Assembly (NCBI GenBank): GCA_905480595.1
Contig: CAJQQY010000280.1
Coordinates: 1-39,475, forward strand
Direction: 5' to 3'
DNA length: 39,475 bases
Source of the DNA: an uncultured Saprospiraceae bacterium
GTDB taxonomy: Bacteria > Bacteroidota > Bacteroidia > Chitinophagales > Saprospiraceae
The notes beneath the pieces were generated by a model. It worked only from the letters and a program-made list of their open reading frames with translations, was not told the DNA's origin and ran no database searches. Position 1 is the stretch's first letter, and every line of letters begins with the position of its first letter. This document shows, piece by piece, positions 16,604 through 29,279 of the stretch. The translations under genes were made by a program, and so were the position numbers.

Positions 16604-19600
16604 ATGAAAAAGTTTGTACTACTTTTTTGCGTGTCCTTATTATTTTTTTCAAATCTCTTTTCACAAAATATTGCGGACCATTGGTTTGATGCCAATGAGG
16701 CTAATATTCTTATTCCAGACAATCAAGAGCGTAAAATTATTCCTGAAAAATATAGAACATTAGCATTGGATTTAGATGCTCTTAAATCAAGTTTAGTTAA
16801 TGCTCCGGTAGAATTCACTTTTGCGGCAGCGAGTAATCCAAAACAAGTAATTCTACCTATGCCTGGTGGCGAGGATGTTGTTTTTCAAGTAGTTGAGTCA
16901 TCAGTAATGTCTCCTGCCTTGGCTGCAAAGTTTTCAGATATAAAATCCTATTCAGGAAATGGAGTTAAAAATAAACTATTGCAAGTACGTTTTGAAATTG
17001 GTGTTAAGGGATTTCGAGCAATGATTGGTTCACCAGAAGGTATCATTTATATTGATCCATATTTGGACGGAAATAACAACAACTATATTTCTTATTATAA
17101 AAAAGATCGATTACCGAATGATTCGGAAAAAGCTTTTTTGAATTCAACGCATATTGACCATGATCCATTGGCAGGTTTCAAAGCGATGCAACCACTTAAA
17201 GATAATGAGGGCGGTCCAAATAGTCCTTTCCAAAATAAAGAACCCAATACTCCTACTCCTACTCCTACTCCTACTCCTGAATTTACTACCACAGCAGGAG
17301 ATCCTGTTGAATTAAAAATTTACCGATTAGCTTTAGGTACTTCCGGAGAATTTTCTGCGACTCAAGGGGGGACTGTAGACGCAGTCATGGCTGAATTGGT
17401 TTATGCCGTCAGTCGATTAAATTTTGTTTATGAAAAAGAAACAGGTGTTCGTTTTCAGTTAGTAGATAATAATGATGAATTAATATTTTTAGATGGAGCT
17501 ACTGATCCTTACGAAGGAGTTGAGATAACCAACACGACTGATATTAACGGTAATGTTATATCATTTGGAACTTTTGCGCAACATACTAACACTCTTAATA
17601 CAATTATTGGAGTTGACAATTATGACATTGGGCACTTATTTAAAACACCCTCCTGTCAAGTTAATGGAAATGGTGTCGGAGGTGTATCAGCAGGCCTAGG
17701 AACTATTTGTGATAATACATTAAAATCTCGTGGAATTTCTTGTAATAGTAACCCTAGTGATAATTTTTACCTAGGAACTTTCTCTCATGAGATTGGACAT
17801 CAATTAGATGCACCACACCCATGGAGTAATTGTAATCCATTTTATAATGGAACAGATCCTGATGGAAGTGATCAACTTAGTGATGGAGATGCCTACGAAC
17901 CAGGAAGTGGATCGACAATAATGTCTTATGGAAATGGTGCATGTGGTAGCAATGATATTCAAGGTTATAGGGATCCTTATTTACATGTCAACTCAATTGA
18001 AGCCATCCAATTTTTCACTCGAGAAGGCAATGGATCATGTGCGACAGTACTGGCTACTGATAATTTTGAACCAGATGTAGAGATCCCTTTTGGTGATGGA
18101 CTGAGAATTCCAATTAGTACTCCTTTTCAATTGACGGCAGTTGCTAGTGATGTTAATCCTGATGATACATTGACTTATTGTTTTGAACAATATGATTTGG
18201 GACCAATTAGCCCATTAGGAAGTCCAATGGGAAATGCTCCAGCTTTTAGAAGTTATTTACCTACGGAAAATCCAACACGTATTTTTCCAAAAATTCAAAC
18301 GATTGTCAACAACCAAAGTAATAAGACAGAAGTCCTTCCTACTTATTCTCGAGACTTAACTTTTAGATGTACTGTTAGAGATAGCAAGTGGGGAGGCGGT
18401 GGATCAGTTTGGGACGAAATCGCGTTCAAATCGGTAGAAACTGCTGGACCATTTTTAGTTACGCATCCTAATGTTAATCAAACTTTTGAAGTTGGTGATT
18501 ATGTAGAAGTAACTTGGGATGTTGCCAACACCGAACTTGCACCTGTAAATTGTCAATATGTAAATATATTGTTATCAACTAATGGCGGTTATGAATATCC
18601 AATTTCTTTAGCCCAAAATGTTCCGAACACAGGAAGTTATACGGTCGTAATTCCAGATGCATTAACAGGATTGGCTAGAGTAAAAATTGAAGCAGCCGAT
18701 AATATCTTTTTTGATATTTCAAATGTAAATTTTAAAATAGTTGAACCTTCAATCCCTGGATTTTCGGTATCATCAGGCCCATTTTTCCAAAAAGTGTGTT
18801 TACCTGAATTACCTTCAATTAGTATCAATACGCTTTCATTATTAGATTATGACAGCTTGATTTATTTTGAAGCAATTGGCTTACCTAGTGGTGCAACTGC
18901 GGAATTTAGTGCTAATCCAATTATGCCTTCCGAAGATGCTACCTTGACCATTAATACTGATAATATTCCAACAGCTGATGGTGTATTCACTTTCCAATTA
19001 ATGTCATATGTTCCTGGAGAAGATACAGTTTACCAAGAATTAATTTACGAAACTGTAGCTACTGATTTTTCTGATTTCTCAACAGTATCTCCTGCTAATG
19101 GTGTAGAAGGAATACAGGAACTTCCCGCTTATACTTGGAACGAAGCTATTGCTGCAGACAATTATCAGATCGAAATTGCAAGTGATCCTTCTTTCTCTGC
19201 TGCTTCCATTGTTGAAACCAATGTTGTAACAGGAGGAAGCTACCAAGCAGGGGCTCAACTTGATCTTGGAGGTGTTTATTTTTGGAGAATTAAACCTCAA
19301 AATGAATGTGCCTCACAAGATTGGTCTCCGATAAATACTTTCGCAGTTAAATCATTATCATGTACTAGTACTGTTAGCTCAGATGGTCCAGTAACTATTC
19401 CAAGTAATGGATTGCCAACTATTGAGTCTACAATTAATGTTCCTTTTGATGGATTAATTAATGATTTAAACATCACTAACATAAACGGAAATCATAGTGC
19501 CTTTAAAGATTTTGATATGTCCTTAGTTGGTCCTGATGGAACTACTGTAAAATTATTTTCTTCTATTATTTGCCAAGCAACTTTATTTGATTTTGGAATG

Positions 19601-20419
19601 GATGATGAAGCTGCTACTTTCATAGGTTCAGATTGTCCTGTGAATACTGGAATTAGTTATAAGTTGGAAGATGAATTTTTAAGCATTTTTGATAATACAA
19701 GTTCACTTGGTGATTGGAAACTTCAAGTTGAAGTAACTAACACCGCAGGGAATGGAGGAAAATTAAATGAATGGACTTTGCAGATCTGCTCTGAAGCTAA
19801 TTTGAGTCCACCAGAATTAATTAAAAATGAAACGATGCCTCTTCCTCCTGGATTCACTCGACCGATCGATGAAGAATTTTTATTGACTGAAGATCCTAAT
19901 AATGGCCCGGAGGATATCACTTACACGATTGTCACACTTCCTGCAAATGGAAAATTATATTTCCTAACTGATGAGTTAGAAGTAGGTGATAAATTCACTC
20001 AAAATTCATCTAGCGCAGGAAACATTCGATACACTCATGATGGAGGTGTTTCTACGGAAGACAGCTTTACATTTGTTGTAGATGATAGCGAAGGTGGATT
20101 AATTGCCACTCCTCAATTCAATATAATTATTGATCCTGATGTAATAATTTCTACAGAAGACCTGGTAGAGCAAAATAAAATTTCTATTTTCCCAAATCCT
20201 GCAAATGATCTAATCAATATTGGTTTTACAAAACCAGTTAATGAGGAAATCATCGTTCGCATTTTTAGCGTACAGGGAAAATTGTTGGCGGAAAAAATGG
20301 TAAAAAATTCTCAGGATTTAATTCAAATGGAAACGAGTCGTTTTGCGAATGGAATCTATTTTGTACAAGTTAGAACGGAAGGACAGATGATGACGGAACG
20401 CGTGACCATACAGAGATAA
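16604..20419 (+). CDS. Very large secreted metzincin (reprolysin-like) with P-domain, cadherin-like domain and T9SS sorting domain
   Basis: 1271 residues. A signal peptide ends near residue 20 (NLFSQ). A prodomain occupies about 25-210. A TP repeat linker (about 215-225) is encoded by five tandem ACTCCT units. The metalloprotease domain follows (about 232-480): HEIGHQLDAPH gives ligands H395, H399, H405 and base E396, and the Met-turn is in STIMSYG (M440). The metzincin consensus HExxHxxGxxH has Gly at position 8; here it is Asp (D402). Downstream are Ig/FnIII-like modules (about 600-915), a proprotein-convertase P-domain (about 920-1063: FDMSLVGPDGTTVKL, GDWKLQVEV, WTLQIC), a cadherin-like module (about 1075-1180: LPANGKLYF, DSFTFVVDD), and a type A T9SS sorting domain from residue 1191 (ISIFPNPANDLINI). 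It is an extracellular protease or adhesin-protease. Confidence 0.93.
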   Translation: MKKFVLLFCVSLLFFSNLFSQNIADHWFDANEANILIPDNQERKIIPEKYRTLALDLDALKSSLVNAPVEFTFAAASNPKQVILPMPGGEDVVFQVVESSVMSPALAAKFSDIKSYSGNGVKNKLLQVRFEIGVKGFRAMIGSPEGIIYIDPYLDGNNNNYISYYKKDRLPNDSEKAFLNSTHIDHDPLAGFKAMQPLKDNEGGPNSPFQNKEPNTPTPTPTPTPEFTTTAGDPVELKIYRLALGTSGEFSATQGGTVDAVMAELVYAVSRLNFVYEKETGVRFQLVDNNDELIFLDGATDPYEGVEITNTTDINGNVISFGTFAQHTNTLNTIIGVDNYDIGHLFKTPSCQVNGNGVGGVSAGLGTICDNTLKSRGISCNSNPSDNFYLGTFSHEIGHQLDAPHPWSNCNPFYNGTDPDGSDQLSDGDAYEPGSGSTIMSYGNGACGSNDIQGYRDPYLHVNSIEAIQFFTREGNGSCATVLATDNFEPDVEIPFGDGLRIPISTPFQLTAVASDVNPDDTLTYCFEQYDLGPISPLGSPMGNAPAFRSYLPTENPTRIFPKIQTIVNNQSNKTEVLPTYSRDLTFRCTVRDSKWGGGGSVWDEIAFKSVETAGPFLVTHPNVNQTFEVGDYVEVTWDVANTELAPVNCQYVNILLSTNGGYEYPISLAQNVPNTGSYTVVIPDALTGLARVKIEAADNIFFDISNVNFKIVEPSIPGFSVSSGPFFQKVCLPELPSISINTLSLLDYDSLIYFEAIGLPSGATAEFSANPIMPSEDATLTINTDNIPTADGVFTFQLMSYVPGEDTVYQELIYETVATDFSDFSTVSPANGVEGIQELPAYTWNEAIAADNYQIEIASDPSFSAASIVETNVVTGGSYQAGAQLDLGGVYFWRIKPQNECASQDWSPINTFAVKSLSCTSTVSSDGPVTIPSNGLPTIESTINVPFDGLINDLNITNINGNHSAFKDFDMSLVGPDGTTVKLFSSIICQATLFDFGMDDEAATFIGSDCPVNTGISYKLEDEFLSIFDNTSSLGDWKLQVEVTNTAGNGGKLNEWTLQICSEANLSPPELIKNETMPLPPGFTRPIDEEFLLTEDPNNGPEDITYTIVTLPANGKLYFLTDELEVGDKFTQNSSSAGNIRYTHDGGVSTEDSFTFVVDDSEGGLIATPQFNIIIDPDVIISTEDLVEQNKISIFPNPANDLINIGFTKPVNEEIIVRIFSVQGKLLAEKMVKNSQDLIQMETSRFANGIYFVQVRTEGQMMTERVTIQR
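17249..17279. repeat. Five tandem ACTCCT hexamers inside the metzincin gene
   Basis: A perfect hexanucleotide repeat encoding a Thr-Pro linker between prodomain and catalytic domain. As the unit is a multiple of three, copy-number change would alter linker length without shifting frame. Confidence 0.9.
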
Positions 20420-20566: not shown

Positions 20567-20938
20567 ATGAAATTACGAATTAGAGGGAACTCCATCCGTT
20601 TGCGATTGAGTCAACAGAACGTGAAAGTATTTGAAGAAAATGGACGAGTAGAAGATAGCATTCAGTTTGGAGTAGCTGCTGGAGGTAAACTAATTTATGC
20701 TTTAGAAACTGCCGATGTAAAAAAATTAAAATGCGAATTCAAAGATAATACGCTTACCGTTTTTGTTCCAAACGAATTAGCAAAAATCTGGATAGAATCT
20801 CAACTTGTTGGCCTAGAACATTTAGACTCAACTACAGAAAATGATCAAGTGCGAATTTTAATAGAAAAAGATTTTAAATGTATGCATGTGCGTATCAATG
20901 AAGATGAAAGTGATTCATTCCCGCATCCGAGAACTTGA
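20567..20938 (+). CDS. Small conserved protein of unknown function (DUF7009-like)
   Basis: 123 residues, cytoplasmic, without signal or membrane segment. The opening MKLRIRGNSIRLRLSQQNVK is characteristic of a short Bacteroidota protein family that I believe is catalogued as DUF7009; the number is from memory. The body is beta-rich (QFGVAAGGKLIYALET, NTLTVFVPNELAKIWIES), and the end is acidic with a Cys and His (DFKCMHVRINEDESD). Family members I recall share this length, so it looks complete. No biochemical function is known to me. It has its own promoter box and terminator-bounded position, so it is monocistronic. Confidence 0.75.
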   Translation: MKLRIRGNSIRLRLSQQNVKVFEENGRVEDSIQFGVAAGGKLIYALETADVKKLKCEFKDNTLTVFVPNELAKIWIESQLVGLEHLDSTTENDQVRILIEKDFKCMHVRINEDESDSFPHPRT

Positions 20939-21094
20939 TTCATTCTTAATCGCAATCTGTTTTTTTTGACACTAAATTAATATGTCCTTTGAAAATTACA
21001 ATAACAGAAATATATGCAAATGTTATGTACCTATAATGAAGGAATTTTAGTCACTTTTCGAAGAGTCTTAGCATAATATATTTTCAAGAAAAGT

Positions 21095-21142
21095 AAATAT
21101 TAAAAGCCAGTTAGTTACACAACTAACTGGCTTTTAATATTT
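21095..21142. terminator. Perfect 22-base-pair hairpin with 4-base loop
   Basis: The arms 21095-21116 and 21121-21142 are exact complements (core AAAAGCCAGTTAGTT) around ACAC. The stem ends are A- and T-rich on both strands, as in a bidirectional terminator. It lies 156 bases beyond the nearest upstream stop codon. Confidence 0.7.
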
Positions 21143-21363
21143 TACAACCTAGTTTTCAATATATATCATTTTCCTTTATTCATTTTATCTTCAAAACCAT
21201 CGTCACAAATACTACGTTTTTTATAAAAAAAAACTAACCTGCAATTTTACCTTTCCGACATACTACAATGAAGATGTCCCTTCACACATGAAGAAAGTAT
21301 TCTTTCTTATAACACTATTTCAAAAAAGAAGGAGCCATTCCAAAACCGTTTGTTAAAAAAGAT

Positions 21364-21407
21364 AAAAGAGGAAGCTTGATTTGAGAAAAGTCAAGTTTCC
21401 TACTTTT
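21364..21407 (+). promoter_or_regulatory. Leader hairpin 1 upstream of the 117-residue gene
   Basis: The stem GGAAGCTTGA / TCAAGTTTCC (one G-U) is extended past a small internal loop by AAAAG / CTTTT, around an 11-base loop. With the second hairpin it makes a structured leader or an upstream terminator. Confidence 0.35.
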
Positions 21408-21443
21408 GTCAAAAATGGAAGGCCTGTCACACGATTTTTTTAC

Positions 21444-21473
21444 ACCTTTCGATTTAAAAGGAAGTCGAAAGGT
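21444..21473 (+). promoter_or_regulatory. Leader hairpin 2 directly upstream of the 117-residue gene
   Basis: Perfect arms ACCTTTCGA (21444-21452) and TCGAAAGGT (21465-21473), ending 26 bases before the ATG. It may influence translation of the downstream gene; there is no match to a known riboswitch that I can name. Confidence 0.35.
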
Positions 21474-21499
21474 TTTAATGACAAAAAATTACCTCCTGT

Positions 21500-21853
21500 A
21501 TGATTGAAAATTTGAAGAAGGGTATGCTTTTAAAGATAGGCGATACATTAGAAACACTACAACTTCGATTGATGCTTAACAAAGAAACAATCGTCAACGA
21601 AGAAAACATTTCGCCTACGCTAAAAGAAGCTATTGACTTTTACAAAAGCGTTACCCAACAAAATCGACAAGCACATCAAGTAATTCAAGAATGTGAAGAC
21701 ACTATTGAAAAATTATTATTACTCAAAAAACATTCATCCGATTTATCCCTCGATACCATGGTCAAACTTTATAATAATTATGAGGCTTTTCCAAAGGCAG
21801 ACTTTCAAAAAGAGTTATGGAATAATCTCGGAATTCAACAAGCATCACAGTAA
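21500..21853 (+). CDS. Small helical protein of unknown function
   Basis: 117 residues, predicted almost wholly alpha-helical (TLKEAIDFYKSVTQQNRQ, VIQECEDTIEKLLLLKKH), with heptad-like Leu/Ile spacing near residues 60-75 suggesting a short coiled coil. No signal peptide or membrane segment. I recognise no domain. Codon use and amino acid balance look genuine, a terminator follows 54 bases after the stop, and no better frame competes, so I accept it as a gene. There is no strong ribosome binding site. Two hairpins precede it. Confidence 0.6.
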   Translation: MIENLKKGMLLKIGDTLETLQLRLMLNKETIVNEENISPTLKEAIDFYKSVTQQNRQAHQVIQECEDTIEKLLLLKKHSSDLSLDTMVKLYNNYEAFPKADFQKELWNNLGIQQASQ

Positions 21854-21974: not shown

Positions 21975-23657
21975 TTACTCTATCGAAATTTTCCCCGTTG
22001 CATATTTTCCACTAACATCTTCTACTCTAAAGAAATAAATTCCTTTTGGTAAATTCCCTTTTTGAAATGTGAATGTATTGATAGAAATACTTTCCATTCG
22101 TTTCACTTCTTGCCCTGTGGCATTAAAAAGTGAAAAGCTAACATCAGTCATTCCATCCGCTAAAACTACGGTTGCTTCGTCATACATCGGATTTGGAAAA
22201 ACTTGAACGTCTTGTTTAAGATCATCAATATCTTCTAAACTCGTTGATAAATCAAGGCCAGTTGTATCTGAAGTATACATCATTACCATGACCATCATTT
22301 CATCATCAGACGTTGGTCCAAACCAGACATTGTTCGGTCCATTATTAACATAACTTGCTGAATGAATAAATCCTGGATTCATTGGTAAAGCAAATAAATT
22401 ATCGAAATACCTAATTGGAATATGTTGGTAATCGAAAAACGGGGCAACACAGCCTGGTGCTCCATCTAGTGAACAAGATGCATCATAAATCATTTCACCT
22501 TTTGTTCCATTTGAATTTCGGAGATACATTTTATAATCAGTTCCCCATTGGTGCGTATGCCCCATAAGTCCCCATACATATCGAGTCCCCACTCCTAGTT
22601 CTGTTTTATCAAAATCATATTGATTACCATTATTCGGAATAAAAATATCATCCTTGAGTAACAAATCTGTTTTCATTTCTTGAATTGCTGTCCCCGCTGG
22701 CTGAGTGTATACATTAAAGTAAACTTCCGCTTGATAAGTATTTGAAGCATCATAATTGATGTAATGTGAATTTAAATCCAAAACAATATCATTGTCCCAA
22801 ATGAACGCAGTTCCTTCAGGTAGTTTTAAATCCGTCGCTTCCTGAACCGCAGTAGTCAAACTAATCGCTGAATGATCTGGATCAGTTCGAAATCCAGGAT
22901 CAATATTATTCGCAGCAAATGCAAATGGAAAATTATAAATGATAAAGTGATGTGACGAAGAAGAAATTTGCATATCAATTCGAGTCACATCCACATCAGC
23001 AGGAAGATCTAAAGCATACTTTTGAAATAGCTCCATCTCTGAAAAATTTTGCCCAGCTGGATTTAAATAAAATGGTCCCATCTTAACTTGAAATCCTTCG
23101 GATGGATCTGGTGCAGCAGGAGCTCCATTTGGAAAACTTGCCAATCCATTTCCATTATAATATTCATTTACCAAAGTTGGAATTTGGTCAACGTAAGCAA
23201 CCGGAAGGTTTGCATCATTATTTGTCCCAGGTGCTCCAAGAAGGATCCATTGGCGAATTAACTCTTTTTCGACATTAGTTAACTCAGGTTGATACAATGG
23301 CATTTGATCACCTTCCACACTTGAATCAAGTACGACTGAAGGTTCGAGTGTTCCATTTATTTTTCGGAATATATAACTCAAATCTGGGCGACCTTTATAA
23401 ATATATTGGTATCCCTCAGCAATCGCATGAGTGTTTGTATTTGGTGTTTTCCCAACAATATTATTGTAAACATCGAGTGCCTTCAATGCGACATTGGCAC
23501 CTGAACCTTCCAAGTCCAAACCACCCTGTTGATCAGCATTACTATGGCAAGACATGCATTTATTTTGGAAAATATTATACACTTCTAAACTCAACTGAGC
23601 AGTAGATATTTGAAGTGTAAAAAAGAATAGGGTGAGAAATAAGTAGATTTTTTTCAT
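21975..23657 (-). CDS. Secreted cytochrome c / copper type II monooxygenase-like protein with T9SS sorting domain
   Basis: 560 residues. A signal peptide ends near STAQ (residue 21). Residues about 25-145 are a cytochrome-c-like domain: heme motif CMSCH (C34, C37, H38), likely axial Met M119 in GDQMPLY, then a terminal helix ELIRQWILLGAPG. Residues about 190-465 carry, in order, the metal ligands of PHM/DBH-type copper monooxygenases: a His pair H236/H237 in SSSSHHFIIYNF and H298 in DLNSHYIN (site CuH), then H367 and H369 in GLMGHTHQWG and a Met (M454 or M455) in SDDEMMVMVMMY (site CuM). Residues about 485-560 are a type A T9SS sorting domain (VFPNPMYDEATV). In animals such enzymes hydroxylate peptidyl-glycine or dopamine using ascorbate; here the fused heme domain could deliver electrons. 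Substrate unknown. All ligands appear present, so activity is plausible but inferred. Confidence 0.85.
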   Translation of the reverse strand: MKKIYLFLTLFFFTLQISTAQLSLEVYNIFQNKCMSCHSNADQQGGLDLEGSGANVALKALDVYNNIVGKTPNTNTHAIAEGYQYIYKGRPDLSYIFRKINGTLEPSVVLDSSVEGDQMPLYQPELTNVEKELIRQWILLGAPGTNNDANLPVAYVDQIPTLVNEYYNGNGLASFPNGAPAAPDPSEGFQVKMGPFYLNPAGQNFSEMELFQKYALDLPADVDVTRIDMQISSSSHHFIIYNFPFAFAANNIDPGFRTDPDHSAISLTTAVQEATDLKLPEGTAFIWDNDIVLDLNSHYINYDASNTYQAEVYFNVYTQPAGTAIQEMKTDLLLKDDIFIPNNGNQYDFDKTELGVGTRYVWGLMGHTHQWGTDYKMYLRNSNGTKGEMIYDASCSLDGAPGCVAPFFDYQHIPIRYFDNLFALPMNPGFIHSASYVNNGPNNVWFGPTSDDEMMVMVMMYTSDTTGLDLSTSLEDIDDLKQDVQVFPNPMYDEATVVLADGMTDVSFSLFNATGQEVKRMESISINTFTFQKGNLPKGIYFFRVEDVSGKYATGKISIE

Positions 23658-24019: not shown

Positions 24020-25054
24020 ATGAATAACTTCCGAAACATCTGGGATATTAAAAATGCTTCTAAAGAAAAATTAACTCAACACGCCTTCGACTATCTCGTT
24101 GGTGGAGCAGATGATTTAAGAACATTTAATCGAAATATCGAAGCATTCCAACATTTTCAAATTCGACCTCGAAGATTAATTGATGTCCGAGAAGTTGATA
24201 CTTCAATTGAATTGTTTGGAAAAAAATATGCAAGTCCTATTTATTTATCCCCAGTTGGATTCCAAGGATTATTTCATCCTGATGGAGAAATTCCTTCAGT
24301 CAAAGCTGCTGCTGCAAAAAGTATTTTATCCGTAGCATCAACCGTAACGAGCAAATCATTTTCTGAAATTTGCGCAGCCGTAGACACTCCACCTTGGTTT
24401 CAGTTATACACCACTTCTGATCGAATCATCACCGCTCGCCTACTCGATCAAGCGCAAAAAAATAATTGTAAAACTATTGTTTTAACCATCGATGTGCCTG
24501 TGCCTGGCAACCGAGAAAAGCATATAGGAATTCTCACGGGCAACATGCGAACAGAAAATGCACTTGGTAATTTTAAAGATGGAGGAGCTGATTTTGATGC
24601 AACATTGACTTGGGATTTTATTTCTTGGTTTCGAAAAAATTATGATATGAATCTTTTACTCAAAGGCATCATGACTGCCGAAGATGCTGCACTTGCTCTT
24701 GATCATGAAGTCGATGGAATCATTGTTTCGAATCATGGCGGACGACAATTGGAAAGTGATTTGAGTACTATCGAAGTTCTAGAAGAAGTTTCAAAAACGA
24801 TCAATGGAGCTATTCCAATTTTAATTGACGGAGGCATTCGTCGGGGAACTGATATTTTTAAAGCATTGGCTTTAGGTGCAACTGCAGTTGGAATAGGACG
24901 ACCTTATATTTATGGTTTGGCTGCGGAGGGGCAAGTAGGGGTGGAAAAAGTTATCGACATTTTACAAACTGAACTAATGCGAAATATGCAGCTTGCAGGT
25001 GCAACTTCCATTTCTAAAATCAATAAAAAACATGTGAGAGAAAAGAGATTTTAA
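24020..25054 (+). CDS. FMN-dependent alpha-hydroxy-acid dehydrogenase/oxidase (lactate dehydrogenase/glycolate oxidase family)
   Basis: 344 residues, a TIM barrel of the LldD/glycolate oxidase/lactate oxidase family. Visible sites: Y25 in FDYLVGGADD, LSPVGFQGLFHPDGE (FMN phosphate-side loop), Y130 in WFQLYTTSD, K215 in LLLKGIMTAEDA, the catalytic base and substrate Arg in SNHGGRQL (H239, R242), and the FMN phosphate loop DGGIRRGTDIFKALALGA through GIGRPYIYGLA. It oxidises a 2-hydroxy acid such as L-lactate or glycolate to the 2-oxo acid and passes electrons to quinone or oxygen. The exact substrate and acceptor are not readable. It is slightly shorter than E. coli LldD. The stop is followed immediately by a GTAG-headed palindrome pair. 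A decayed copy of its 3' end lies at 29371-29466. Confidence 0.93.
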   Translation: MNNFRNIWDIKNASKEKLTQHAFDYLVGGADDLRTFNRNIEAFQHFQIRPRRLIDVREVDTSIELFGKKYASPIYLSPVGFQGLFHPDGEIPSVKAAAAKSILSVASTVTSKSFSEICAAVDTPPWFQLYTTSDRIITARLLDQAQKNNCKTIVLTIDVPVPGNREKHIGILTGNMRTENALGNFKDGGADFDATLTWDFISWFRKNYDMNLLLKGIMTAEDAALALDHEVDGIIVSNHGGRQLESDLSTIEVLEEVSKTINGAIPILIDGGIRRGTDIFKALALGATAVGIGRPYIYGLAAEGQVGVEKVIDILQTELMRNMQLAGATSISKINKKHVREKRF

Positions 25055-25163: not shown

Positions 25164-28100
25164 TTATTTAATTACTTTAAGTATTGCTTTTTCTCCATTA
25201 TTGATTACAGAAACTAAATACATTCCTGATGGAAAACTTCTCATATCATAAGTAAATAGGCGTTCGGAAACAATCGTTCTCGACAGTATCTTTCCCGTAA
25301 GACTGTAAACTGTTATTTCATTTTCGCCTTCAGGTAATTCTATATTTAAATTATCAGTTACTGGATTTGGATAATACTTTAAGTCCATGTTTTGCAACTC
25401 CTTAATAGAAGTAAACTCTTTACAGGTACCAATTACGTATATATCTTGATTCGCAGCATTATTCTTTTCACCCGCTCCAGGGAAAGAATAGGTATAGTAA
25501 AAATAAATCCTGGTTCCTTCTGCAGCGTTAAGGGAAAAAGGCACATTTGGCGTAACAATATATCCTGGCAGATTTCCTGGATCTGTTCCATAATACAAAA
25601 TACAGGTTGGCGAACCAACACCAGGCTGAGAAGGTATAAAGGTTAAAGTCGGATTATTATCATCAGGTGAAAATAAGTAATCAAAGTCCCCATCCCAAGA
25701 TGTACCATAACAAGAAGGTGCGGGAATTATATCTACATTTACCACACTTGAAATGGTAGAGTCTCCATTATTATCATAGGCAATAGCCGTCAAAGAATAG
25801 TTTCCAATTTCAGGCATCCAATCAATATTAAATGGAGATTGTGTTACAGTAGATAAGAAGTCTCCATTAGCATAAAAATTCACTTTCTGAATACTATCAT
25901 TCAAATCTGAAGCTAATACTTCAATCGTTATCATTTCTTCTTCGTAGAATTCTGAATTATCAAATGGTGTAAGAATAGCAACTGTTGGAGCAACATTATT
26001 TGTGGTACTCGAAATAATATATACTTCATCAATATCAGTATAACTGCCATTATCAACTTCCAACTGCATTAGATATACACCTTCTATTAAGGATGAAATT
26101 TCTGGTGAAGCTGCTTGGTTATTTGAAAAGTTCAATACCGAGGGACCGTAAATTTGTGTCCAATTATAGGTTAGATTTCCTCCTCCTGGATCGCTACTTG
26201 TTGTTCCATCTAGAGTAGCAGTACTTTGAGGTAAAACAATGATTTGATTATCTCCAGCATTTGCAATTGGTTGATCATAATTTAGCGGTGAATTATACGT
26301 AAAGGTAAATGCCCCAATATTTACTTCACCATTATCAAAAAATAATCGCAATACTTGACGCCCACTTTTTAATGGGATATTGCTTACCGTCTTTGTTGCC
26401 CAACTCGACCAACTACCTGTATTATTAACAGTTATTCCAGCGCTAACTACGATACCATCTGATTCAATATTAAATGGTCCTCCTCCAGCTGAATTATCAC
26501 AAGCATATCTAAATTCGAGATCATAATTTCCAGCTTGCTGAACATCGACTGTATATTCTAACCATTCGCCTGAAGATATCCAACCAACTCCATGACCTTC
26601 TGATACATCATCAAGTGCATCAACATATTCATCTAACCTAAAGTCTCCTTGATTGGCAACAGTCAAATCAAGATAAGCAATACCATTTCCATTTCCTCCT
26701 TCAAAAATATCGTAATCACCTGCATAGAGTGTTCCTGGAATTTCAGTAGGTAATCCGTAATAAGGTACTTGATCACCAACTGTTACAACTACGATATTGG
26801 TAATAACATAATTAGTGCCTTCATAAATTCTTGCATAAAAGTTATGTTTTCCAACCGTTAAATTACCGGCTGTAATTACATAAGGCGCTTGGGTTATTTC
26901 ACCAATAAAATTTTCTCCATCATAGAATTCTACTTTGGTTGCTGTTCCATCATTTACCTCTGCGGTCAAGTCAACACTACCATCTGGATAAGCTCTTGCA
27001 AAACTAGAGGTTAGAGAACCATTTAAATTAATATCCAAACTTGTCGCTAAGGTATTTGGTGGGATTTGTAAAACATAGCCATCAGAAAAATTAACAGCAA
27101 TACTATCTGAACTATAATTTTGCCCTACATAAATGATAGAATCATTTTTATTAAAAGCCGCTGCTAATGGATGATCCGCAGTTAAGGAAGCATCCACATT
27201 TCCTAAAACATTCATAGCATGCAACCAATGATAAGTTTGAGCATCAGAAACTCCAAATTTCAAATTTCTATCTGGATATGAATCATATAAATCAATTGCT
27301 TTTTGAGGATTAACAAATGCCAAATACTCCCACATCAAATCATGCCATAAATTTACATTTGGTTCATTTATTAAAATGCCGGTGTTTTGTTCTATTTCAT
27401 TCCATAGTTTATTAACGTAATTTGTATCCTGTCCTAAATACAATGATCCTCCATGAATTGGATATAACTGAATACCGTAAGAAGCTTCAATATCACTTGT
27501 CCAAAAAGTACCATTATCATAACTATTTCCCCATACTCGAGAAACTATACTATACTGTTGTGTCGCTTGAAAATTTCGTTCATGTACATCCAACCAATAC
27601 TCTTCTATCGCTGTCTGCTCCGTCGTGTATAGATAAATTCCCAAATCTCTAATTGAATCATTACCCGTAATGGATCCCCAATGAATTAAGGAAGAATTGA
27701 ATTGCATACTTTCAGAAGTTGATTCTTGATCATTCCCTTGCGGAAAAGAGGCAAAACCATTTGCCCAACAATGCCCTGCATAAGGACTAAAATTTCTTAA
27801 AAATGGAAACAAATCATCTTGACGACTAGGGTTAGATGCATCACGAACCAACAGGTCAATCATTCCTCCCCATTCTGCTACCCAGCCCGGATTAAATTGT
27901 TCGACAAAGGAAGCTGCATGAATAAAATAGCCCCAATGAAAATGGTGATCATTGATATTTCCATCTTGCCCATGTCCCGCTGGATAACCCAACATGGCTG
28001 ACCAAGTATCATTATAGTAAAATAAAAAAGCCACCTCTCCAGCATTGTATCCTAGCCAATTTTCAAGGCGAGTTTGGACAGTTGTTCGTAATTTATTCAA

Positions 28101-29279
28101 AGCAATAGTATCACCAGTTAATTCTGCAATTCTTGCCGTTTGAATTAAACGATTCATTTCCTGGCCTTCGTTATAAGAATCTGTCCAACTGTTCAATGCA
28201 TCATTTTCTAATAGTTGAATTTTAGTTTGTAGCTGCGCAGGACTAAATCCATCGCTGTAATAATCTACATATGGTAGGGTTGGTAAAATTCCATGAAAGG
28301 TATTTTCAACGGTAAAAGTATTTCCGTTGAGTGTTTTTAATTCGCCTCTAACTGTTTGATAAGATGCTTGATCTGGCGTCGGAGAAGTTCCACTTAAGTT
28401 ATCCCATTGGTGTGGCAACAATCCCAAAAGCATAGTCGAATCAAGACCTTCTTTAACATCGGTTTCTACTAAAAATTCTGTAGTAACAATTGAAGTGGTT
28501 TCATCATAAGACCATTCAACTTTTGTTTCTGATGGAAAAACATAAGCGTATTGTTTGTACTCATTGGCAACCGTAGTGACATCAGTAGCATCCAATGGGA
28601 TGAATCCTAATGACCAATAATTTTCACCATTCAAATCAGAAGTATAAACATTTCCATTCTGCACCCAACTGCTTCCCGAAGGAGCATAAACTGCAAAATC
28701 TGCTTCATACCTTGCGTCCTCAATAATCATCATTTCATCCACAATAGTTACCGTTCCTTGATTAACTTTAATTTCTGCTACATCATCTGCATTTTTTGTA
28801 AAATAAAGAAAAGGCATTCCAATCCCCGCAGTTGTAGTAAAATTATGAGTGGAATTACTCCAATCCATTTCTACTGTCCAATCCGTAAAATCGGAAACAT
28901 TTGCAGCACTAGCATTCAACCCTGAGACGCCAACCACAACTGGTTGAATATCATCAATTACTCCCCAAGGAATATAAGTCACAACCAATCCACTATTAAC
29001 AGTTTTTAAAGTAAATGGATAATTAAATAAATTATCTGAATGTTCATTTTTCACCTTATGTGACCACCAATCATTTGTCGGAACTGGTTTATTCGCAGCC
29101 GCTCCTGACAAAAAAGGTGTCCCCTGAGGAAAAGTATTCCTCCCTGCAGCATCTACGCCAGGAAAAGTAGTAGTATAACTTCCGCTACCTACATTGACAA
29201 CTTGGCTAAATAAATTTGGAGATATTCCTAATAAAAAAAGAAAGGAAAATAAAAAATGGAGTGATCTGTTGATTTTCAT
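25164..29279 (-). CDS. GH81 endo-beta-1,3-glucanase, multidomain, T9SS-secreted
   Basis: 1371 residues. A signal peptide ends near NLFSQ (residue 26). The GH81 domain spans about 35-700: PTNDWWSHKVKNEH, NDHHFHWGYFIHAASF (443-458), FLRNFSPYAGHCWANG and GNDQESTSESMQFN, which carries the likely catalytic glutamates E519/E523. It should cleave laminarin-type or curdlan-type beta-1,3-glucan by inversion. After it come an Ig-like module (about 750-835: VEFYDGENFIGEITQAPY), a CBM6-type carbohydrate-binding module (about 850-997: GGNGNGIAYLDL, GWISSGEWLEYTVDV), a PKD-like domain (about 1003-1095: ANAGDNQIIVLPQST, LDGTTSSDPGG), a second Ig-like module (about 1100-1190: VNFYANGDFLSTVTQSPF), and a T9SS sorting domain from about residue 1300 (YYPNPVTDNLNIEL). 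It is extracellular or surface-held, for algal, fungal or plant glucan. No SusC/SusD pair is adjacent, and the gene is flanked by duplicated sequence. Confidence 0.93.
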   Translation of the reverse strand: MKINRSLHFLFSFLFLLGISPNLFSQVVNVGSGSYTTTFPGVDAAGRNTFPQGTPFLSGAAANKPVPTNDWWSHKVKNEHSDNLFNYPFTLKTVNSGLVVTYIPWGVIDDIQPVVVGVSGLNASAANVSDFTDWTVEMDWSNSTHNFTTTAGIGMPFLYFTKNADDVAEIKVNQGTVTIVDEMMIIEDARYEADFAVYAPSGSSWVQNGNVYTSDLNGENYWSLGFIPLDATDVTTVANEYKQYAYVFPSETKVEWSYDETTSIVTTEFLVETDVKEGLDSTMLLGLLPHQWDNLSGTSPTPDQASYQTVRGELKTLNGNTFTVENTFHGILPTLPYVDYYSDGFSPAQLQTKIQLLENDALNSWTDSYNEGQEMNRLIQTARIAELTGDTIALNKLRTTVQTRLENWLGYNAGEVAFLFYYNDTWSAMLGYPAGHGQDGNINDHHFHWGYFIHAASFVEQFNPGWVAEWGGMIDLLVRDASNPSRQDDLFPFLRNFSPYAGHCWANGFASFPQGNDQESTSESMQFNSSLIHWGSITGNDSIRDLGIYLYTTEQTAIEEYWLDVHERNFQATQQYSIVSRVWGNSYDNGTFWTSDIEASYGIQLYPIHGGSLYLGQDTNYVNKLWNEIEQNTGILINEPNVNLWHDLMWEYLAFVNPQKAIDLYDSYPDRNLKFGVSDAQTYHWLHAMNVLGNVDASLTADHPLAAAFNKNDSIIYVGQNYSSDSIAVNFSDGYVLQIPPNTLATSLDINLNGSLTSSFARAYPDGSVDLTAEVNDGTATKVEFYDGENFIGEITQAPYVITAGNLTVGKHNFYARIYEGTNYVITNIVVVTVGDQVPYYGLPTEIPGTLYAGDYDIFEGGNGNGIAYLDLTVANQGDFRLDEYVDALDDVSEGHGVGWISSGEWLEYTVDVQQAGNYDLEFRYACDNSAGGGPFNIESDGIVVSAGITVNNTGSWSSWATKTVSNIPLKSGRQVLRLFFDNGEVNIGAFTFTYNSPLNYDQPIANAGDNQIIVLPQSTATLDGTTSSDPGGGNLTYNWTQIYGPSVLNFSNNQAASPEISSLIEGVYLMQLEVDNGSYTDIDEVYIISSTTNNVAPTVAILTPFDNSEFYEEEMITIEVLASDLNDSIQKVNFYANGDFLSTVTQSPFNIDWMPEIGNYSLTAIAYDNNGDSTISSVVNVDIIPAPSCYGTSWDGDFDYLFSPDDNNPTLTFIPSQPGVGSPTCILYYGTDPGNLPGYIVTPNVPFSLNAAEGTRIYFYYTYSFPGAGEKNNAANQDIYVIGTCKEFTSIKELQNMDLKYYPNPVTDNLNIELPEGENEITVYSLTGKILSRTIVSERLFTYDMRSFPSGMYLVSVINNGEKAILKVIK

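Follow-up and report, generated by a model that had tools for sequence, protein, structure and literature searches.

The open reading frame at positions 21975..23657 (minus strand) of the window, i.e. the whole 39,475-nucleotide stretch of DNA analysed in this study, encodes a protein of 560 aa, in which a signal peptide, a heme c domain, a PHM/DBH-like core and a T9SS sorting domain follow one another. Our preferred interpretation, to which we give a probability of roughly two in three, is that this protein acts as a copper monooxygenase belonging to the PHM/DBH superfamily, either secreted or located on the cell surface, and that a heme c domain joined covalently to it serves as the electron inlet. 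The fusion of cytochrome, copper core and T9SS domain in a single chain had been proposed in the original prediction; the exact coordinates of the ORF (strand: minus) as well as the order of its domains were confirmed.

The genome carrying this ORF (approximately 6.27 Mb, 508 contigs) is of the Saprospiraceae type of Bacteroidota. Orthologues are present in three species of the genus (90, 87 and 74% identity), and the nearest named records to residues 21-472 (91, 90 and 77% identity) all come from Saprospiraceae MAGs. Relatives of the protein were collected from genomes at four taxonomic levels, namely genus, family, order and phylum. Searches of Pfam, NCBIfam and the PDB with the single 560-aa sequence recovered the tail and, beyond it, no more than weak matches to cytochromes; the PDB gave the tail alone and no PHM. 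The scan of a viral collection produced no match, and promoter and terminator scans stayed at chance level.

The two-copper core occupies residues 181-468 (22254..23117, minus), and its membership of the PHM/DBH superfamily is, on the basis of profile comparisons, firm. A profile of the core from the protein's own clade matched PHM best in the PDB (3.9e-4), with PHM entries being the only ones at E<0.05, and aligned with PHM positions 23-280 of 284, all six copper ligands being in register. The profile of all bacterial clades, comprising the own-clade core plus two other bacterial clades, gave E-values of 3e-13 for PHM and 3e-12 for DBH, with no other protein matching in the PDB at E<=1, in agreement with the PHM/DBH-like core originally predicted. 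Comparison of the window clade profile with the Pfam-recognised bacterial members by hhalign gave an E-value of 1e-15. A search of the single sequence with the Cu2_monooxygen and Cu2_monoox_C models, which had been proposed as a check, fails: neither PF01082 nor PF03712 matched the 560-aa protein in Pfam even at E<=10. Cu2_monoox_C (PF03712) is nevertheless found at E<=1 in 12 of the 29 relatives (best 2.8e-6, above the cut-off), and we read the missing match of the window protein as a limit of the model and not as evidence against homology. AlphaFold runs of 450 and 288 residues, supplied with four input sequences only, gave mean pLDDT values of 28 and 30.

In the own-clade profile alignment, PHM H107, H108, H172, H242, H244 and M314, the copper ligands of that enzyme (numbering assumes that chain 1OPM_A begins at residue 45), fall exactly on six columns of the window protein. 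Those corresponding to CuH are H236 and H237 (22947..22952; PHM H107 and H108) and H298 (22764..22766; PHM H172), precisely the set named beforehand, while CuM is represented by H367 and H369 of an HTH triplet (22551..22559; PHM H242 and H244) and by M454 (22296..22298; PHM M314), all on the minus strand. For the CuM methionine, both M454 and M455 had been put forward; since position 455 varies among the relatives and M454 aligns with PHM M314, M454 and not M455 is the Met ligand. All six residues proved invariant in 29/29 relatives, and the HHHHHM set is kept in 57/57 bacterial cores from three clades. Among the first 29 relatives only 17 of the 288 core columns are invariant, the six copper ligands included, and the probability that six columns named in advance would all lie within these 17 is approximately 1.6e-8. 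When the alignment was widened (34 more divergent sequences), nine invariant columns were left, six of which are the copper ligands. Together with the profile matches, this conservation gives strong support to a core that is homologous to PHM/DBH and has the complete set of six copper ligands. In monooxygenases of this superfamily the two coppers lie approximately 11 Å apart and face a solvent cleft, or come much closer in a closed form such as that of DBH.

Residues 21-146 (23220..23597, minus) represent a putative mono-heme c-type cytochrome domain, an identity strongly supported by its conserved residues and by its homology to a free-standing cytochrome gene (see below). The heme attachment motif CMSCH is present, as predicted, at residues 34-38 (23544..23558, minus), with C34, C37 and H38 kept in all 27 relatives having this domain. 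M119 (23301..23303, minus), located in an MP motif and already named as the candidate axial heme ligand, occupies a column with Met in 22/27 relatives, and the other five have His there or within a few residues; axial ligation of the heme by Met or His is therefore likely. No curated family scored above its cut-off (PSCyt1 0.0017, Cytochrome_CBB3 0.0038 and a weak Cytochrom_C match in Pfam), and the profile of the domain gave only weak matches in the PDB (FoxE 0.043, cytochrome c6 0.15). The heme motif occurs among the relatives as CX2CH, CX3CH and CX4CH, the widened CX3CH or CX4CH forms being present in many of them (L018, L022, L028, L029, L030, L033-L037 and others).

The hydrophobic N-terminus, approximately residues 1-20 (MKKIYLFLTLFFFTLQISTA; 23598..23657, minus), was recognised by eye as a probable signal peptide. 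At the opposite end, residues 486-557 (21987..22202, minus) match the Por_Secre_tail/T9SS type A C-terminal sorting domain (PF18962, 2.8e-8; NCBIfam TIGR04183, 5e-9) and contain the motif VFPNP, in line with the YPNP-like sorting domain of the original prediction. The same genome contains the SprA/Sov secretion channel (SprA at 2377 bits) and a cytochrome c assembly gene, and 150 further T9SS tails were scored in it. That the protein is a T9SS cargo is strongly supported by its tail. The window also encodes a large T9SS-tailed reprolysin-like (M12B) protease at 16604-20419 (+) and a large T9SS-tailed GH81 glucanase with CBM6 at 25164-29279 (-).

A tree of 57 cores resolved three groups. The window clade (support 99/97) is T9SS-tailed and comes from the same order; a lipoprotein-type group, located mostly elsewhere in the phylum, consists for the most part of heme fusions, and three stand-alone cores fall within it or next to it; and the Pfam-recognised group (support 100/100) is heme-fused too. 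The occurrence of heme c in the lipoprotein and Pfam-recognised clades indicates that the fusion is general among these Bacteroidota rather than specific to this gene. A fused heme is missing from the cores of L032 (whose cytochrome is encoded by a gene of its own), L038 and L055. One Pfam-recognised member, L120, has an additional N-terminal region that looks redoxin-like by its sequence, and redoxin (AhpC-TSA) genes adjoin the lipoprotein form at L101:9163-9723 and L104:5464-6078. The core was detected in 89/199 genomes sampled from the order, frequently as multiple copies, and in 22/395 sampled genomes across the phylum. The bacterial branch to which the protein belongs is large and escapes standard database models. 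Neither a characterised bacterial PHM homologue in the open-access literature nor a solved bacterial PHM-type structure in the PDB was found, absence from these sources being no proof; for this reason, the enzymatic activity rests on homology.

One genome (G022) has a 176-aa cytochrome and a 311-aa core as products of separate, adjacent genes, which suggests a joint function of the two domains. The free-standing cytochrome matches the window heme domain at 2e-14, and the G022 core matches Cu2_monoox_C at 2.8e-6. This run of genes also holds MbnP (PF20243, 1e-46) and a MauG/MbnH-type di-heme gene, and in a second locus (L092) homologues of both adjoin the fused form. As the pairing was seen in 2 of approximately 40 neighbourhoods, the link between MbnP/MbnH and the heme-copper protein is suggestive only. 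Cytochrome and PHM-like genes beside MbnP and MbnH/MauG-type genes are located at L083:4493-8532 and L092:7023-11186, a possible copper-handling link, and the genome of the window has MbnP genes as well, at other loci.

No neighbour that is conserved beyond the genus and indicates a pathway was found around the gene. A link to the divergently oriented FMN-dependent alpha-hydroxy-acid dehydrogenase at window 24020-25054 (+) was set aside, this gene being kept in all four genus members and not beyond. A large gene for an FdhF-like oxidoreductase, present in two members of the genus (L067:9939-12230, L068:10269-12560), is absent at window 20938-21500, and a similar gene lies near a relative of the protein in L070 (4069-6363). 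A DUF7009 protein is encoded at window 20567-20938 (+).

Concerning the substrate, the PHM residues R240, N316 and Y318, which hold the peptidylglycine carboxylate, are replaced in the window protein by M365, V456 and V458. Arg at the R240 position and Asn at the N316 position were never observed among the 29 relatives. The residues found at these positions make peptidylglycine less likely and point to an apolar site, and the substrate probably belongs to a non-peptidylglycine, rather apolar class.

In PHM and DBH, CuM binds O2 and CuH passes electrons, with ascorbate as the reductant (PMC4846438), the electron source that the original prediction had named for the known eukaryotic enzymes. For the heme-to-copper principle there is a direct precedent in bacterial copper LPMOs, which receive electrons from, and are activated by, a small c-type cytochrome domain (PMC8981238). 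The window protein would be exported by the Sec pathway and receive its heme in the periplasm, after which the T9SS would carry it across the outer membrane, with removal of the tail. The heme domain might then take electrons from an external reductant or redox protein and deliver them to the CuH side, heme-borne electrons replacing ascorbate or acting beside it. CuH (H236, H237, H298) would accept single electrons in turn and pass them to CuM (H367, H369, M454), which would bind O2 and hydroxylate a C-H bond of the substrate. The position of the heme in the chain appears suited to feeding CuH, and a built-in electron relay via the heme is the most likely mechanism. The term 'self-supplied', originally used for this electron route, is too strong, as the heme is a relay and not a source. 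Copper loading, O2 chemistry, heme-to-copper transfer, the final location and the substrate class of the protein are what we infer. A bolder proposal, to which we give somewhat less than even odds, is that these proteins form an unannotated large bacterial PHM/DBH branch, in which covalent heme c replaces ascorbate, two-copper hydroxylation outside the cell is connected to a redox chain of the outer membrane or the extracellular space, and the substrate class is new to the superfamily.

It is also conceivable, though unlikely, that the two-copper monooxygenase is reduced directly by small reductants, as PHM and DBH are by ascorbate (PMC4846438), and that heme c serves another purpose, for instance docking, O2/redox sensing or peroxide removal. 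The DOMON domain of DBH, which is heme-less although folded like the heme domain of cellobiose dehydrogenase, illustrates that cytochrome-like domains of this kind are not always electron carriers, and cores without a fused heme (L032, L038, L055) do exist. However, heme c is retained in three separate clades with its heme-binding residues conserved, and where cytochrome and core are encoded separately, in the split locus, their genes still adjoin; both observations speak against this alternative.

The same heme, a fused redox group pointing to electron flow, speaks against a copper-binding or copper-scavenging surface protein that uses the PHM scaffold for copper uptake or storage, with no monooxygenase turnover. 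Such a role, which we regard as improbable, would agree with the MbnP and MbnH-type genes adjoining in two loci and with the MbnP genes elsewhere in the genome of the window, since MbnP is a named copper-binding family and the MbnP/MbnH pair has been treated alongside copper proteins such as MopE (PMC3621798). Storage, however, would not demand that both copper sites, including the His-His-Met set of CuM, be invariant over very distant relatives. Finally, the failure of single-sequence Pfam and PDB searches to find PHM might suggest that the resemblance is due to chance and that the core represents some secreted, beta-rich domain without relation to PHM. This possibility is effectively refuted by the exact register of the six ligands, the nine-column invariance, the profile E-values of 3e-13 and 3e-12, and the hhalign value of 1e-15 to the Pfam-recognised bacterial members. 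A copper monooxygenase fed through its own heme c remains the preferred reading.

In animals, enzymes of the PHM/DBH type make amidated hormones and noradrenaline. The protein described here touches two long-standing questions, namely how electrons move from CuH to CuM and how the hormone- and neurotransmitter-making enzymes of animals originated. Electron entry would be directly observable in bacterial enzymes that combine these copper ligands with a coloured heme, acting as a reporter, in a single chain, and the bacterial core might offer an enzyme without the animal disulfide network. Moreover, many Bacteroidota (89/199 sampled genomes of the order) would carry a putative extracellular oxygenase.

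Compared with PHM (PDB 1OPM, 1PHM), the window protein has the same core from end to end and the same six copper ligands in the same order, with ligand spacings of 61/69/85 versus 64/70/70 in PHM. On the other hand, PHM is devoid of heme, whereas the window protein has heme c and has not kept the peptidylglycine-binding residues, and its core shows no sign of the animal disulfide pattern, with two partly conserved Cys only. DBH (PDB 4ZEL) shares the core (3e-12) and likewise has an extra N-terminal domain ahead of it. The DOMON of DBH lacks the heme ligands (PMC4846438), whereas the window protein bears what appears to be a genuine heme c domain. At the C-terminus, DBH has a dimerisation domain and the window protein a T9SS tail.

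The bacterial proteins matching PF03712 (L066, L108-L113, L118, L120) resemble the window protein in having a CxxCH cytochrome ahead of the core, the same six ligands and, in several cases, a T9SS-like tail. They nevertheless form a separate clade (100/100) with another type of cytochrome (MPPW approximately 35 residues after CxxCH), and the window protein lies below the Pfam model. The closest parallels for the proposed electron route are Cellvibrio Cbp2D X183 with LPMO and fungal cellobiose dehydrogenase with LPMO, in which electrons pass from a cytochrome to a copper monooxygenase outside the cell (PMC8981238). In these LPMO systems donor and copper enzyme are different proteins, the latter with mononuclear copper, whereas the window protein unites the putative donor and a two-copper core in one chain.
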